From the NCBI GenBank assembly GCA_000701725.1, contig JNJQ01000006.1, positions 62,001-126,000 on the forward strand: 64,000 bases of DNA, in the 5' to 3' direction. The stretch's first letter is position 1; each line of letters begins with the position of its first letter. Both the position numbers and the translations under genes were made by a program. Shown piece after piece: positions 5,125 to 47,814 of this stretch. The DNA is from Erysipelotrichaceae bacterium NK3D112. Lineage in GTDB: Bacteria > Bacillota_I > Bacilli_A > Erysipelotrichales > Erysipelotrichaceae. Below the pieces are notes generated by a model. The model had not been told where the DNA came from. It worked only from the letters and a program-made list of their open reading frames with translations, and ran no database searches.

Positions 5125-5356
5125 GCGAAAGGCGATGACGGGAAGAGTAGTCCCGGGACAAGGATTTCAGAAAGCAGGCGGATGATGCGAGCCTGTATCC
5201 ATAACCGCGATGAAGATGGCCCCTGAGCCTGCTGTCTGAACAGTGCAGTAGGACAGCACGGAGACGTCCGTTATAACGTTTGAGAGGTTCTCCGTCAGGA
5301 GAACAAGAAAAAGGTGGTAACGCGTGCAAGACGTCCTTTCATTCGGGATGTCTTTT
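5125..5356 (+). promoter_or_regulatory. T-box riboswitch upstream of metG
   Basis: The leader has the hallmarks of a T-box. The stem I start reads GATGACGGGAAGAGTAG (about 5134-5150), an apical-loop motif resembling GGNTGNTGNGAGCC lies at 5180-5194, and the T-box core AAGGTGGTAACGCG is at 5311-5324. A terminator stem AGACGTCC/GGGATGTCT is followed by six T (5328-5356). An AUG at 5210-5212 is the likely methionine specifier; another lies at 5216-5218. The UGGU of the core can pair with the ACCA end of uncharged tRNA-Met, which has discriminator A. Uncharged tRNA is expected to promote antitermination. Confidence 0.9.
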
Positions 5357-5377
5357 TTATTCAAGGAGGTGCACACG

Positions 5378-7318
5378 ATGGAAAACAAAGGTCCTTATTA
5401 CATTACGACGGCGATTGCCTACGCAGCCGGAAAACCGCATATCGGCAACGTCTATGAAATCGTTCTGGCGGATGCGATTGCCCGTTACAAGAGATATGAC
5501 GGCTATGATGTCCGCTTCCAGACCGGTACCGATGAACACGGCCAGAAGGTTGAGCAGAGAGCGGAAGCTGCCGGCAAGACACCGAAGCAGTTCGTTGACG
5601 AGATTTCAGCTGTGATCAAAGAGCAGTTTGACTGCATGAACATTTCCTATGACAAGTTCATCCGCACAACCGATGACTATCATGAGAAGCAGATTCAGAA
5701 GATCTTCAAGAGACTCTATGATCAGGGCGATATCTACAAGGGAAAATACGAAGGTCTTTACTGTCAGGAGTGCGAAGCATTCTATACCAAGAGCCAGCTG
5801 ACCGAAGACGGCAGATGCCCGATCTGCGGCGGTGAGGTTCATCCGATGGACGAGGAAGCCTACTTCTTCAGAATGTCCAAATATGCGGACAGACTGATCA
5901 AATATATCGAGGATCATCCTCATTTCATTCAGCCGGAAAGCAGAAAGAATGAGATGCTGAACAACTTCCTGAGACCGGGTCTGCAGGATCTGTGCGTTTC
6001 CCGTACTTCCTTCAAGTGGGGCATTCCGGTTGACTTCGATCCCAAACATGTCGTCTACGTCTGGATTGACGCATTAAGCAACTATATCACCGGCCTTGGC
6101 TATGACGCGGACGGCAACAGTAGTGAATTATATAAGAAGTACTGGCCTGCGGATCTGCACCTGATCGGCAAGGACATTGTCCGCTTCCATACCATCTACT
6201 GGCCGATCATGTTAATGGCGCTGAATGAACCGCTTCCCAAGCAGGTCTTCGGCCACCCGTGGCTGCTCACCGGCGATTCCAAGATGTCCAAGTCCAAGGG
6301 CAACGTGATCTATGCGGATGATCTGGTCAGCCTGTTCGGGGTTGACGCGGTCAGATTCATCATGCTGCACGAGATGCCTTTCGCGCAGGATGGTCATGTC
6401 ACATATGACCTGATGATCGAAAGAATCAACAGCGATCTGGCAAACAACCTGGGCAACCTGGTCAACAGAACCCTGTCCATGCAGAACAAATACTTCAACG
6501 GCATCGTCGCCAACCCGCGCGAGGATATGCCGCTGGATGATGAGCTCAAGGAATACGCGCTCAACACCGTCACCAAGGTCAATGCGCATATGGATGAGCT
6601 GAGAGTGGCAGATGCCATCCAGGATATCCTGGATCTCTTCTCCCGCTGCAACAAGTACATTGATGAGACAATGCCCTGGGCGCTTGCCAAGGATCCGGAT
6701 CAGATCGGCAGACTGGCAACAGTTCTTTACAACCTGCTCGAATGCGTCCGTTTCGGCGGCGTTCTGTTAAGACCGTTCCTGCCGGATACAGCCGACAAGA
6801 TTCTCTGGTCTCTCAACACCATGGAAAAGGATACCGACTCCATCAAGGAATTCGGCATGCTGGAAACAGATATCCGCGTCACCGAGAAGCCGGAAATCCT
6901 CTTCGCAAGACTGAATGAAAAGGAAGTCATGGCGAAGGTTGCGGAAATCCAGAAGGTCTATCAGGCGGTCAAGAAGAAGGCGGCTGAAAAGAAGGCTGAA
7001 ATCGAACCGGCTGATTTCGACAAGATCGAACTCAGAGTCGGCAAGGTTCTCTCCTGTGAAAGACATCCGGCGGCGGACAAGCTGTTCGTGCTGAAGGTTG
7101 ATCTTGGCCAGGGAGATGTCAGACAGATCGTTTCCGGTCTGGCCCAGAGCTACACACCGGGTCAGGTCATGGGCAAGAATGTCGTCGTCATCACCAACCT
7201 CAAACCGGCAGTCATCAGAGGCATCGAGTCAAAGGGCATGCTGCTGGCAGGCAAGGATGAAAGACAGATCGCAGTAGTTGAAGTCAACGGACTTGAGCCC
7301 GGCACAAGAATTTCCTGA
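5378..7318 (+). CDS. metG: Methionyl-tRNA synthetase
   Basis: The protein has 646 residues and charges tRNA-Met with methionine using ATP. The start at 5378 follows AAGGAGGT by 7 nt. Order of features: the HIGH-type motif PHIGN (20-24), a zinc knuckle with CQEC near 128 and CPIC near 148, KMSKS near residue 302, the anticodon-binding helical domain, then a C-terminal EMAP/Trbp111-like tRNA-binding domain from about 546 that mediates dimerisation. This is the full-length form with a C-terminal extension, as in Bacillus. Expression is controlled by the T-box directly upstream. It is followed by its own terminator. Confidence 0.98.
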   Translation: MENKGPYYITTAIAYAAGKPHIGNVYEIVLADAIARYKRYDGYDVRFQTGTDEHGQKVEQRAEAAGKTPKQFVDEISAVIKEQFDCMNISYDKFIRTTDDYHEKQIQKIFKRLYDQGDIYKGKYEGLYCQECEAFYTKSQLTEDGRCPICGGEVHPMDEEAYFFRMSKYADRLIKYIEDHPHFIQPESRKNEMLNNFLRPGLQDLCVSRTSFKWGIPVDFDPKHVVYVWIDALSNYITGLGYDADGNSSELYKKYWPADLHLIGKDIVRFHTIYWPIMLMALNEPLPKQVFGHPWLLTGDSKMSKSKGNVIYADDLVSLFGVDAVRFIMLHEMPFAQDGHVTYDLMIERINSDLANNLGNLVNRTLSMQNKYFNGIVANPREDMPLDDELKEYALNTVTKVNAHMDELRVADAIQDILDLFSRCNKYIDETMPWALAKDPDQIGRLATVLYNLLECVRFGGVLLRPFLPDTADKILWSLNTMEKDTDSIKEFGMLETDIRVTEKPEILFARLNEKEVMAKVAEIQKVYQAVKKKAAEKKAEIEPADFDKIELRVGKVLSCERHPAADKLFVLKVDLGQGDVRQIVSGLAQSYTPGQVMGKNVVVITNLKPAVIRGIESKGMLLAGKDERQIAVVEVNGLEPGTRIS

Positions 7319-41846: not shown

Positions 41847-42446
41847 ATGACACTTTGTGACAGGGATATCCGCGGACCGCTGTTTGACTTTCTGGAGCAG
41901 GAATACGGCGTGATCCGCATCATCGAGGAGAAGCAGACAGGCAGGGCGAGAGCGGATGTCGTCATGGTTCTGTATGACAGACTTTGCGGTATCGAAATCA
42001 AAAGTGACGCGGACACATACGTCTGTCTGAAAAACCAGGTGAAATACTACAACCAGTATTTTGATCTGAATTATGTCGTGTGCGGAACCAGTCACGCCGC
42101 CCATATCGATGAACATGTGCCCTCCTTCTGGGGCATCATCACGGCGGAGGCGGAAAACGGCACAATCGATTTTTATATCAAACGCAGGCCGCTTCCCAAT
42201 CCGAAAATGAAGCCGGAAAAGAAAATCACGCTTTTATGGAGACCGGAGCTGGCCGAAATCCAGCGGAAATACCATCTGCCTGCTTACCGGCAGAAATCCA
42301 AGCAGTTTGTGCAGGCAAAGATTCTGGAAAAACTGGATGCGCAGGATCTTCACACCGAGATCTCGGCCGCATTGTTTGAACGGGACTATACGCTGATTCA
42401 GGATCAGCTGGATGAATACAGAAAAGAACACGGGAGAGGAAGATGA
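41847..42446 (+). CDS. sce7726 family PD-(D/E)XK nuclease-like protein
   Basis: The protein has 199 residues. The start TLCDRDIRGPLFDFL and the core RADVVMVL...GIEIKSDADTY carry the D-(x)n-E-x-K pattern of PD-(D/E)XK nucleases; sce7726 proteins are this type. The partner function of sce7726 proteins is not well known; they may be restriction-like or defence-linked. The Glu and Lys of the active-site EIK are present, so the nuclease may be active. The last four bases overlap the start of the MocR-like gene (ATGA), so the two are translated together. The start codon is exactly 6 nt after a -10 box. Confidence 0.78.
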   Translation: MTLCDRDIRGPLFDFLEQEYGVIRIIEEKQTGRARADVVMVLYDRLCGIEIKSDADTYVCLKNQVKYYNQYFDLNYVVCGTSHAAHIDEHVPSFWGIITAEAENGTIDFYIKRRPLPNPKMKPEKKITLLWRPELAEIQRKYHLPAYRQKSKQFVQAKILEKLDAQDLHTEISAALFERDYTLIQDQLDEYRKEHGRGR

Positions 42447-43513
42447 AAAAGGAACAGCCCAAATATCTCTCATTGTATGAGGAAATCCGTGAGGCAATCG
42501 TGAACGGCTCCTTTCCTTACGGCTCAAAGATACCCTCCAAGCGTCTGATGGCCCAGGAAAAGGGACTCAGCCTGATCAGTGTGGAACATGCCTATGAGCT
42601 GCTCAATGAGGAAGGCTATATCGAGGCGAGAATGCGCAGCGGCTATTATGTCATCTACCGCGAGAATGATCTGATCCATGTGGAAAAGACTAAGGCGGTG
42701 AATGAGAAAAAGACACAGACGGATGAATATGTCTTCCCCGTTTCCGTGTATATGTCAGCGATGCGCGGAGTGCTGGCAGAAAAAGGGGATCAGCTGCTGG
42801 TCAGAACCGAAGGAAGGGGAAGCCAGGAAATCCGCAGCGCCATCGCTTCCTATCTCAACCGCTCCCGCGGCATGCGCGTCAAGCCGGACCAGGTTGTCAT
42901 CGGTTCCGGTTCGGAATATCTATACTCCCTGATCGTGCAGCTGCTTGGCAGAGACCGTCTCTATGCCGTGGAGGATCCGTGCTATGACAATATCATCCGC
43001 ATGTATGAGCACAACGATGTGAAAACCGATCATCTGAAACTCGGCGCCAACGGCATCCGCAGCGATGAGCTTTCCCGCACAAAGGCATCCGTTCTTCATG
43101 TGACGCCTTATCACAGCTATCCGAGCGGCCGCAGCACCGACGCCTCCAAGCGCATGGAATACATCCGCTGGGCGGAAAAACATAACGCATTCATCGTTGA
43201 GGATGATTATGAATCCGAGTTTTCGCCATTGCTGAAAGTGCAGCAGACGCTGTTTTCCATCGAGCCGGTGAAACATGTGATTTATCTGAATACTTTCACC
43301 CGCACGATCGCTCCCTCGATCAGGGTCGGCTATATGATTCTGCCTGAGGCATATACGGAAGAATTTCTGGAAAAAATGTCTTCCTCCTCATGCACGGTTT
43401 CCGCGCTTTCGCAGTATGTGATCGCCCGTCTGCTCAATGACGGAAGCTTTGAGAGACACATAAACAGAGTCAGAAGAAAACTGCGCCGGAACATGCAGTA
43501 CGAAACCGAATAA
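42443..43513 (+). CDS. Truncated MocR/GntR-like regulator with Arg at the PLP lysine position
   Basis: The protein has 356 residues; MocR/PdxR proteins usually have about 450-480. The N-terminal winged helix (YLSLYEEIREAIVNGSF, SVEHAYELLNEEG) is intact. The aminotransferase-like part follows, with GSGSEYLYSL and EDDYESEF, but the lysine that binds PLP, normally in the S-K-(S/T)-L motif, is Arg287 in TFTRTIAPSIRVGY. It ends soon after ERHINRVRRKL and lacks the last 90-100 residues. I found no continuation in other frames; AT-rich DNA follows. It may be a decaying gene or a regulator that no longer uses PLP. It is fused in translation to the sce7726 gene. Confidence 0.8.
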   Translation: MKKEQPKYLSLYEEIREAIVNGSFPYGSKIPSKRLMAQEKGLSLISVEHAYELLNEEGYIEARMRSGYYVIYRENDLIHVEKTKAVNEKKTQTDEYVFPVSVYMSAMRGVLAEKGDQLLVRTEGRGSQEIRSAIASYLNRSRGMRVKPDQVVIGSGSEYLYSLIVQLLGRDRLYAVEDPCYDNIIRMYEHNDVKTDHLKLGANGIRSDELSRTKASVLHVTPYHSYPSGRSTDASKRMEYIRWAEKHNAFIVEDDYESEFSPLLKVQQTLFSIEPVKHVIYLNTFTRTIAPSIRVGYMILPEAYTEEFLEKMSSSSCTVSALSQYVIARLLNDGSFERHINRVRRKLRRNMQYETE

Positions 43514-43518
43514 GTACC

Positions 43519-43546
43519 TTTACTTTCATAGATTATTTGTTAATAT
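43519..43546 (+). promoter_or_regulatory. Promoter of the purine operon
   Basis: TTTACT (43519-43524), 16 bp, TAATAT (43541-43546); predicted transcription start is near 43553. Confidence 0.55.
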
Positions 43547-43552
43547 ATGTGT

Positions 43553-43740
43553 GCACTTCAGTTTGGTAACGGAAACCCCGTCGGGTTGAAAGGATGGAGC
43601 TATGGCGTCTGTTGTTGTGACTCTCCGAACAAAAGAAGGAACAAAGTGCTGCCGGAAGGATATCCGCGCAGTCGGCTTTTTAACAGCGAAATCAGAAAAG
43701 AAATGATCAGCCTTTGGATTACCCGGAGGCTGTTTTTTAT
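43553..43740 (+). promoter_or_regulatory. Structured leader RNA of the purine operon, class unknown
   Basis: About 200 nt precede purE. I see a closing helix CUUC-A-GUUUGG (43556-43566) with CCGAAC-AAAA-GAAG (43625-43638), an inner hairpin AACCC/GGGUU (43574-43587), a hairpin CUGCCGGA/UCCG-C-GCAG (43649-43671) followed by CGGCUUUUU, and a full terminator (43708-43738). It does not match purine, ZTP, PRPP/ykkC or preQ1 riboswitch consensus motifs that I know. It is a candidate attenuator or riboswitch for the pur genes. Confidence 0.55.
43708..43738 (+). terminator. Regulatory terminator just before purE
   Basis: A stem of up to 10 bp (CAGCCTTTGG with CCCGGAGGCTG) is followed by six T, 15 nt before the purE ATG. 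Its place upstream of the first gene suggests attenuation. Confidence 0.8.
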
Positions 43741-43752
43741 ACAGGAGGAGAT

Positions 43753-44250
43753 ATGAAAAAAGCTGCAGTAATCATGGGCTCGGACAGTGATCTGCCCGTA
43801 ATGTCCAAAGCATTCACCGTCTTGGAAGAGTATGGTATTCCTTTCGAAGCACATGTATATTCCGCCCACCGCACACCTCTGGAAGCGGCCGAATTTGCTG
43901 AAAACGCAAAGGAAAACGGATTCGGAGTGATCATTGCCGGCGCAGGCATGGCGGCAGCTCTGGCAGGCGTGCTGGCGGCGCATACAACACTGCCGGTCAT
44001 CGGCGTACCGCTCAAATCAGCTGTGCTCGAAGGTACTGATGCCCTGCTGGCAACCGTCATGATGCCTTCCGGCATTCCGGTGGCCACCGTTGCCATTGAC
44101 GGCGCCAAAAACGCGGCATACCTGGCAGCTGAGATTCTCGCTCTTGGCGATGATGAGCTGGCGGAAAAGATCGCGGCAGACAGAAAAAAGCAGAAAGAGA
44201 CCGTTCTGAAAAAGGACGCGGCTCTTCAGGAAAAGCTTCAGAATAAATAA
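43753..44250 (+). CDS. purE: N5-carboxyaminoimidazole ribonucleotide mutase, class I PurE
   Basis: The protein has 165 residues. It converts N5-CAIR to CAIR in purine synthesis. The ATG at 43753 has GGAGGAG upstream. The class I signature MGSDSDLPVM and SAHRTPLEA, plus GAGMAAAL, are present. It is the first gene of a seven-gene purine operon and lies directly after an attenuator-like terminator. No purK is adjacent. purC, purF, purB and purA are not in this window. Confidence 0.97.
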   Translation: MKKAAVIMGSDSDLPVMSKAFTVLEEYGIPFEAHVYSAHRTPLEAAEFAENAKENGFGVIIAGAGMAAALAGVLAAHTTLPVIGVPLKSAVLEGTDALLATVMMPSGIPVATVAIDGAKNAAYLAAEILALGDDELAEKIAADRKKQKETVLKKDAALQEKLQNK

Positions 44251-45924: not shown

Positions 45925-46635
45925 ATGAAAGCAGTCAACTTATTTGATTATCTTGCCAACAACGAATATCCCGGCCGCGGTATCGCAATCGGAAGAACCC
46001 CGTGCGGAAAGAAGATGAGAATCGCCTACTTCATCATGGGCAGAAGCGAAAACAGCAGAAACAGAGTCTTCGTCACAGATGGCGAGGGCATCCGCACACA
46101 GGCGTTTGATCCTTCCAAAATGCAGGATCCTTCCCTGATCATCTATGCCCCGGTCAGAGTTCTGAACGGCACAACCATCGTCACAAACGGCGATCAGACT
46201 GATACCATCTATGATTTCATGGCAGAGGGCAAGAGCTTCGAGGATGCCCTGAGAACAAGAACATACGAGCCGGACGGACCCAACTGGACACCCCGCATTT
46301 CCGCAGTTGTGAAGGGCGACTCCTATCAGATGTCCATCCTCAAGAGTGCGGACGGCAATCCCGAAAGTACCCACAGACAGTTCTTCGATTTCACCAATGA
46401 GCTCAACGGCTGCGGCCATATCATCCACACCTACCGTGAAAACGGCAATCCGATTCCTTCCTTCGAAGGCGAGCCGGTTTTATGGGAAATGGAAAAGATG
46501 CCCTTTGATGAATGGAGCGACAATGTCTGGAAGGCACTGAACAAAGACAACAAGGTTTCCCTGTTCACAAGAGCGATTGACATCGAAACAGGCGAAACAA
46601 AGACAAGAATCTATAACAAGCATGAGGAGGAATAA
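45925..46635 (+). CDS. PurO-type IMP cyclohydrolase
   Basis: The protein has 236 residues. It matches the archaeal-type IMP cyclohydrolase family (PF07826): YPGRGIAIG, YFIMGRSENSRNRVF, DPSLIIYAP, VTNGDQTDTI and EPDGPNWTPRISA. It should catalyse the last step to IMP, closing FAICAR. It replaces the N-terminal domain of bacterial PurH, since the next gene codes for the formyltransferase only. AGGAGG is present upstream within purN. This split arrangement is known in some Bacillota and archaea. Confidence 0.85.
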   Translation: MKAVNLFDYLANNEYPGRGIAIGRTPCGKKMRIAYFIMGRSENSRNRVFVTDGEGIRTQAFDPSKMQDPSLIIYAPVRVLNGTTIVTNGDQTDTIYDFMAEGKSFEDALRTRTYEPDGPNWTPRISAVVKGDSYQMSILKSADGNPESTHRQFFDFTNELNGCGHIIHTYRENGNPIPSFEGEPVLWEMEKMPFDEWSDNVWKALNKDNKVSLFTRAIDIETGETKTRIYNKHEEE

Positions 46636-46638
46636 AAC

Positions 46639-47814
46639 ATGGCTAAGGAACTCGAACTGAAATACGGCTGCAACCCCAATCAGAAACCGTCCAGAATTTT
46701 CATCGAAGAGGGTGAACTCCCTGTTACTGTTCTCAACGGACGTCCCGGTTATATCAACTTCATGGACGCGCTCAACAGCTGGCAGCTGGTCAAGGAACTC
46801 AAGGAAGCCACCGGTCTGCCCAGTGCCGCAAGTTTCAAGCATGTATCCCCGGCAGGCGCTGCTGTCGGTCTGCCTCTGACTGAGGTTGAAAGAAAGATCT
46901 ACTTCACCGGCGACCAGGAGCTTTCCCCGATTGCCTGCGCATATGCAAGAGCACGCGGTGCCGACCGCATGAGCTCCTATGGCGATTGGGCAGCGCTTTC
47001 CGATATCTGCGATGCCGACACAGCCAATCTGATCAAGAAGGAAGTCTCCGACGGTGTCATCGCGCCGGGCTATACAGAAGAAGCGCTTGAAATCCTGAGA
47101 TCCAAGAGAAAGGGCAGCTACAACGTTGTTCAGATCGATCCTGACTATGTACCGGATCCGATTGAAAGAAAGCAGGTCTTCGGCATCACATTCGAACAGG
47201 GCAGAAACAACATCAAGATTGATGACTCCCTCTTCACAAACATCGTGACCGCTAACAAGGACCTTCCCGAGGAAGCTGTCCGCGACCTCAAGATCGCGCT
47301 GATCACCCTGAAATACACACAGTCCAACTCCGTTGCCTATGCCAAGGGCGGCCAGGCCATCGGTATCGGTGCCGGCCAGCAGAGCCGCGTCCACTGCACA
47401 CGTCTTGCCGGAAACAAGGCTGACAACTGGTGGATGAGACAGAACCCGAAGGTTCTCGCGCTGCCGTTCAGAGATGATATCCGCAGAGCTGACCGCGACA
47501 ATACCATCGATGTCTACATCGGTGAGGAATATGAGGATGTGCTCAGAGACGGCACATGGCAGAACCTCTTCACCGAAAAGCCTGAACCGCTCACAGTTGA
47601 GGAAAAGAAGGAATGGCTGGCAAAGAACACCGGCGTATCACTGGGTTCCGACGCCTTCTTCCCGTTTGGCGACAATATCGAAAGAGCGCACAAGAGCGGC
47701 GTCTGCTATATTGCCGAGCCGGGCGGATCCATCCGTGATGACAATGTCATCGAAACCTGCGACAGATACGGTATGACCATGGTCTTCAACGGCATCCGTC
47801 TGTTCCATCATTGA
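46639..47814 (+). CDS. Stand-alone AICAR transformylase (PurH C-terminal domain type)
   Basis: The protein has 391 residues and corresponds to the C-terminal AICARFT half of PurH; the N-terminal MGS-like cyclohydrolase half is missing. Core pieces are [28 protein letters not shown] (with the key Lys-His), [11 protein letters not shown] and QQSRVHCTR. It formylates AICAR with 10-formyl-THF to FAICAR, which the PurO-like neighbour then cyclises. AGGAGG overlaps the end of the preceding gene. About 391 residues is the length of the single-domain form seen in several anaerobes. Confidence 0.92.

Follow-up and report, generated by a model that had tools for sequence, protein, structure and literature searches.

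The window examined here is a stretch of 64,000 nucleotides (nt) of contig JNJQ01000006.1 from Erysipelotrichaceae bacterium NK3D112, and the leader that precedes its purE gene and the purine operon behind it (43547-43752) is probably a translation-controlled transcription attenuator. This leader carries a short upstream open reading frame (uORF) that possesses its own Shine-Dalgarno sequence (SD) and stops 1 nt in front of an intrinsic terminator, designated T2. Comparison with related genomes establishes, at the level of sequence, the presence of the uORF, its fixed geometry relative to T2, and a conservation of the RNA around the uORF start. A preliminary description of this DNA overlooked the uORF and regarded the leader as a riboswitch-type attenuator on a purine operon; the attenuator part of that claim is retained here, whereas the riboswitch part is only partly supported, and the conserved core consists largely of the SD, the start codon and the first 11 codons of the uORF.

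Leader-peptide attenuation is a textbook mechanism for amino acid and pyrimidine genes, but a search of the open-access literature brought up no description of it for purine genes. If true, the arrangement would add another scheme of purine control beside PurR and the known riboswitches, would show that attenuation in a lineage of Bacillota can depend on ribosomes keeping up with RNA polymerase, and would offer a natural series of species with differing sensors ahead of one uORF. Hereafter, leaders are given L-numbers and genomes G-numbers, G000 being the window's own genome.

The upstream reading frame and its terminator

The uORF of 34 codons, together with its ribosome-binding site AAAGGA, lies between the promoter and the terminator, where the short reading frame of a leader-peptide attenuator is expected. 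Leaving aside those with a riboswitch, 31 purE leaders of the same Erysipelotrichaceae genus were examined and every one has a uORF with an SD, including relatives that lack the conserved element at 43559-43635. In the leaders that do carry this element (type A), the SD core AAGGA was found in 15 of 15, and almost all other leaders contain an SD-like run. Moreover, the frame of the uORF (frame 0) stays open as far as the terminator in 28 of 28 dereplicated leaders, compared with 4 and 11 for frames 1 and 2. When codons 1-11 were fixed and only the later ones shuffled, the combined probability of all 28 frames staying open was about 10^-11.6, a product that treats the leaders as independent, which is true only in part, and that concerns ATGs chosen for having an SD. 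Past codon 12 the uORF peptides diverge freely, and a test for purifying selection towards their C-terminus gave no sign of it. Since the changes there are spread evenly over the codon positions while the frame remains open, it is, as far as these comparisons indicate, the act of translating to the terminator that is conserved and not the distal peptide.

The stop codon of the uORF (43704-43706) lies 1 nt upstream of T2, which is the sole terminator-like site between 43400 and 43800 (0.2 on average in shuffled sequence) and ends 14 nt upstream of the purE ATG. In none of the 30 leaders that were measured does the uORF end more than 10 nt ahead of the T2 5′ arm; counted to the final base of its stop codon, it ends between -10 and +1 of this arm in 19 of them, and otherwise inside T2 or beyond it. 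The reading frame is thus placed so that a ribosome would affect the folding of the terminator. In Escherichia coli, translating ribosomes repress an intrinsic terminator located a few nucleotides past a stop codon, and do so less the farther away it lies (PMC4824070). Amino acid attenuators leave more than 20 bp between the leader stop codon and the terminator, while the pyrBI terminator is located inside its leader gene (PMC4824070). Judged by position, the arrangement of uORF and T2 is the geometry of ribosome-controlled attenuation of the pyrBI kind. In two leaders of the genus (L031 and L036), the uORF stop codon overlaps the purE start codon (ATGA), and translational coupling may add to attenuation or replace it there.

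The closest known system is the UTP-sensitive attenuator pyrBI/pyrL of E. coli, which likewise has a leader reading frame whose end overlaps or abuts the terminator of a nucleotide-synthesis operon and needs no antiterminator hairpin. Unlike pyrBI, the purE leader controls a purine operon, bears a structured element over the uORF start, and has a stretch before the terminator that is not rich in the nucleotide to be sensed. With the leader-peptide attenuators of amino acid genes (trp, his, ilv and ilvB-II) it shares a uORF followed by an intrinsic terminator in a single copy per genome. It differs from them in the position of the stop codon, which is separated from the terminator by 1 nt where theirs keep a distance of more than 20 bp, and in the lack of a codon run for one amino acid, no such run being shared among the 31 uORF peptides.

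The conserved element over the uORF start and its counterparts

The predicted fold of the conserved element is a three-way junction over the SD and the AUG, in which P1 pairs the 5′ untranslated region with uORF codons 8-10 and encloses the hairpins P2 and P3. All the structures described earlier ahead of purE are present, namely the long helix, the hairpins that it encloses, the hairpin with a T-tract and the terminator; the long helix, first placed at 43556-43566 with 43625-43638, pairs here as P1 (43561-43566 with 43625-43630). In an alignment of 13 distinct sequences of the element, the nine pairs of P3 are all standard in every sequence, and the P2 stem, read directly from the sequences of relatives, varies among ACCC/GGGU, GUCC/GGAC, GUCC/GGGC and UGUC/GACA. 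A GUC/GAC pairing inside P3 was rejected, being broken in L017 and L021. Synonymous identity over uORF codons 2-11 reaches 0.90, compared with 0.32-0.58 in purE windows of the same genomes (12 distinct sequences), and the constraint at the uORF start is, by this measure, one on the RNA that goes beyond coding. By folding energy, the leader as a whole does no better than shuffled sequence (z -0.96), and its significance therefore rests on conservation and not on stability. No pairing between the element and T1 or T2 is kept in relatives, and a helix GCACUU/AAGUGC between the leader 5′ end and 43643-43648, present in G000, was discarded as it is not retained in L008 or L009. The element at 43559-43635 most likely gates translation of the uORF.

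Of 70 genomes from the same GTDB genus, a DNA search followed by a covariance model located the core in 15, the window's own and 14 others, each with a single copy that precedes purE. Across 84,980 species genomes a pattern scan hit 16 loci. Two of these are chance hits; the other 14 are purE leaders of Erysipelotrichaceae metagenome-assembled genomes, of which two are recorded as Solobacterium and several have isolate names that point to rumen collections. Occurrence outside the genus was not borne out: a model search through 294 genomes of the order and the scan of 84,980 genomes returned only purE leaders of the Erysipelotrichaceae group plus chance hits. Genomes that gave no strong model match contributed 22 more purE loci. 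In 16 of these a uORF, nearly always preceded by a clear SD, ends near the terminator; the remaining six comprise three ZTP riboswitches, two leaders that look like degenerate ZTP leaders and one leader that was not assigned (L044).

Four relatives of the genus (G007, G022, G023 and G093), all of which encode PyrR, carry a PyrR-box-like hairpin in the place that corresponds to the element. In L038, L039, L041 and L042, such a hairpin is located about 155-200 nt upstream of purE and follows the pattern UCCUUUAA...YCCNGNGAGRC...AAAGG, with the uORF SD contained in its closing stem, an arrangement that suggests PyrR control of the purine operon via the uORF in these leaders. A second weak match to the PyrR site (RF00515) occurs in G007 and G022 before a gene for a uracil/xanthine-type permease, named by eye from its sequence. 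In contrast to these hairpins, the window's element has neither the box UCCNGNGAGG nor a match to RF00515, and a PyrR site was accordingly rejected for this leader; the pyrR gene is missing from 11 of 13 type-A genomes tested, G000 included (10 of the 12 others). The P2 hairpin of L018, L019 and L020 (GUCCNGUCGGRC) is similar to a shortened form of the box.

In yet other leaders of the genus, purE control is exerted from the same position by the ZMP/ZTP riboswitch (RF01750), found above the Rfam threshold at L040:1395-1472, L043:2009-2087 and L045:2011-2087, and no uORF was found in these leaders. Immediately ahead of purE, two additional leaders (L046 and L047) have an apparent ZTP core in degenerate form, for which Rfam gave nothing above its threshold. 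The window's leader resembles RF01750 neither in sequence nor in structure; Rfam searches returned no match to this or any other family, neither at the gathering cut-off nor, for 43500-43800, up to E 10, in keeping with the preliminary description, which had found no class that fits.

Proposed mechanism and rival explanations

We infer that translation of the uORF antiterminates. A ribosome translating the 34 codons close behind RNA polymerase would pass through T1, arrive at the stop codon 1 nt before T2 and cover the T2 5′ arm, allowing the polymerase to continue into purE; with the uORF untranslated or the ribosome lagging, T1 and T2 would form and transcription would end. The element formed by P1, P2 and P3 would serve as the sensor, opening the uORF start when purines are scarce and closing it when they are plentiful. 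This response to a purine-pathway signal is proposed by analogy with the PyrR-box-like hairpins over the uORF SD in relatives, and the uORF start is the best candidate for the place where the switch is set because nucleotide-dependent pausing is not supported, as set out below. More tentatively, and with rather less than even confidence, the whole may be viewed as a two-step switch in which a new aptamer or protein-binding RNA acts on the uORF and the uORF acts on the terminator, the species of the genus appearing to have exchanged the sensor (conserved element or PyrR box) or to have replaced the entire system (ZTP riboswitch).

Several observations weigh against this scheme. Covariation, proposed earlier as a check on the helices, is weak in P1 and P2, with three two-sided changes, a number that 16 of 500 shuffles also reached and that is lowered by the MAFFT alignment, which misplaces P2 in four rows; P3 is nearly invariant. 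The only PyrR match of note is that of L041, which scores 35.3 bits against a gathering cut-off of 54, and the other hairpins score lower. The motif V-T-(S)-L-R-T is retained in L034 (GTG ACT CTT CGT ACA) and in L026 (as VTSLRT) with synonymous codon differences only, which hints that the peptide matters too. Furthermore, RNA polymerases outrun ribosomes in many low-GC Gram-positive bacteria (PMC13323073), and coupling would be unreliable if this were so in the present lineage. The purine bias of the window's genes, taken as an indicator of coupling, is 0.52 and points neither way.

Two rival explanations keep the attenuator and differ in the sensor alone, so that the likelihood we give them overlaps with that of the attenuator itself. 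The first to consider is a protein site, where an RNA-binding protein on P2 and the SD region would repress initiation of the uORF, a role that PyrR appears to have in the relatives that encode it; the hairpins of L038, L039, L041 and L042 and the P2 of L018, L019 and L020 speak for it, but with PyrR missing from G000 and most of the type-A genomes tested, RF00515 unmatched in G000 and no other candidate protein known, it is a possible yet doubtful reading. Somewhat unlikely, in our estimate, is nucleotide sensing as in E. coli pyrBI, by which low ATP or GTP would slow RNA polymerase before T2, the ribosome would catch up and block the terminator, and the 5′ element would only set the rate of initiation. 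The geometry of uORF and terminator agrees with it, and the pyrB leaders of the same genomes appear to be of this type: in L073, L074, L075 and L076, L074 belonging to the window's genome, the uORF has 20-30 codons and its end reaches the terminator or lies within it, and the pyrB leaders of G000 and three relatives, genomes that lack PyrR, have a 43% T stretch before the terminator and look like pyrBI-type attenuators in Bacillota without PyrR. Moreover, 23 of 28 purE leaders carry a run of four or more T at a steady distance of 15-52 nt before T2 and inside the uORF (9.5 expected). However, such a run would report UTP and not purines, and a purine-rich pause stretch before T2 was sought in the purE leaders and not borne out (0.569 against 0.551 in purE, p = 0.51), so nucleotide-dependent pausing is not supported for purE; sensing of this kind also leaves the RNA-level conservation at the uORF start unexplained.

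Two other explanations differ in more than the sensor. An arrest peptide is a live rival, though less likely, and we hold it to be distinctly improbable: a metabolite would cause the nascent chain M-A-S-x-V-(V/M)-T-L-(R/Q)-T to stall the ribosome soon after the uORF start, and T1 and T2 could form as a result. The synonymous changes under the VTLRT of L034 and the VTSLRT of L026 indicate some constraint on the peptide, but the motif is missing from at least 13 other uORF leaders, R and Q are interchangeable within type A, and the constraint in type A extends to synonymous sites. A new riboswitch class, in which a purine-related metabolite would bind to the three-way junction at 43559-43635 and the junction itself would control the terminator, the uORF being incidental, is very improbable. 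Its strong conservation at the RNA level, the junction fold, the lack of an Rfam match, the purine operon downstream and the ZTP riboswitch at the same position in three leaders of the genus would all agree with an aptamer, but the start of the uORF lies inside it, no pairing that would link it to T1 or T2 is kept, the uORF persists in relatives that lack the element, and the element occurs once per genome, in one genus and before one gene. A precedent exists in ilvB-II of Corynebacterium, which was first regarded as a structured-RNA and riboswitch candidate, and was later best explained as a uORF attenuator (PMC10272879). The caution to be drawn is that a conserved riboswitch-like leader can turn out to be the start of a uORF.

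Leader layout and the operon behind it

The features of the leader are compiled in the table below. Transcription is estimated from the promoter boxes to start at about 43552-43555, and boxes of the form CTTTAC...TA-rich, similar to those of the window, precede most of the relatives' leaders, although the promoter at 43519-43546 is absent from the list of a consensus promoter scan.

Table. Coordinates of the purE leader in the window
Feature	Position	Strand	Basis
Likely sigma-70-type promoter, TTTACT (43519), 16 nt spacer, TAATAT (43541)	43519..43546	+	sequence reading
Conserved RNA element of type-A leaders: P1, P2, SD, start-codon hairpin P3	43559..43635	+	covariance model R3, 99.4 bits
P1 5′ strand GUUUGG, pairing with 43625-43630	43561..43566	+	94.9% of cells paired, one two-sided pair change
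P2 hairpin AACCC-CGUC-GGGUU (43574-43578 with 43583-43587)	43574..43587	+	stem variation among relatives
uORF Shine-Dalgarno AAAGGA, 7 nt before ATG	43589..43594	+	sequence
P3 hairpin GAG-C-UAUGGC / GUUGUG-A-CUC, predicted to hold the uORF start codon	43597..43624	+	RNAalifold prediction
uORF, 34 codons, MASVVVTLRTKEGTKCCRKDIRAVGFLTAKSEKK, then stop	43602..43706	+	own SD; frame kept open across genus
P1 3′ strand CCGAAC, within uORF codons 8-10	43625..43630	+	pairing with 5′ strand
T1, hairpin and T5 tract within the uORF, putative weak terminator or pause site	43644..43681	+	-13.8 kcal/mol
T2, intrinsic terminator CAGCCTTTGG-ATTAC-CCGGAGGCTG TTTTTT	43708..43738	+	hairpin 43708-43732 plus T6
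purE Shine-Dalgarno region AGGAGGAGAT	43743..43752	+	sequence
purE, first operon gene	43753..44250	+	TIGR01162, 194 bits

NCBIfam and Pfam matches confirm the de novo purine operon named in the preliminary description, in the order purE, purM, purN, IMP cyclohydrolase, AICAR formyltransferase, purD and purL, as far as 52822. The PurH function is divided within it (45925-47814): one protein resembles IMP cyclohydrolase (PF07826), and the AICAR formyltransferase (NF005492) is a protein of its own. On the same strand, a gene for a MocR-like regulator of the PdxR family (42443-43513) ends a few nucleotides upstream of the purE promoter boxes. Elsewhere in the window, a T-box leader (5126-5341, 131.9 bits) stands before the methionyl-tRNA synthetase gene at 5324-7318.
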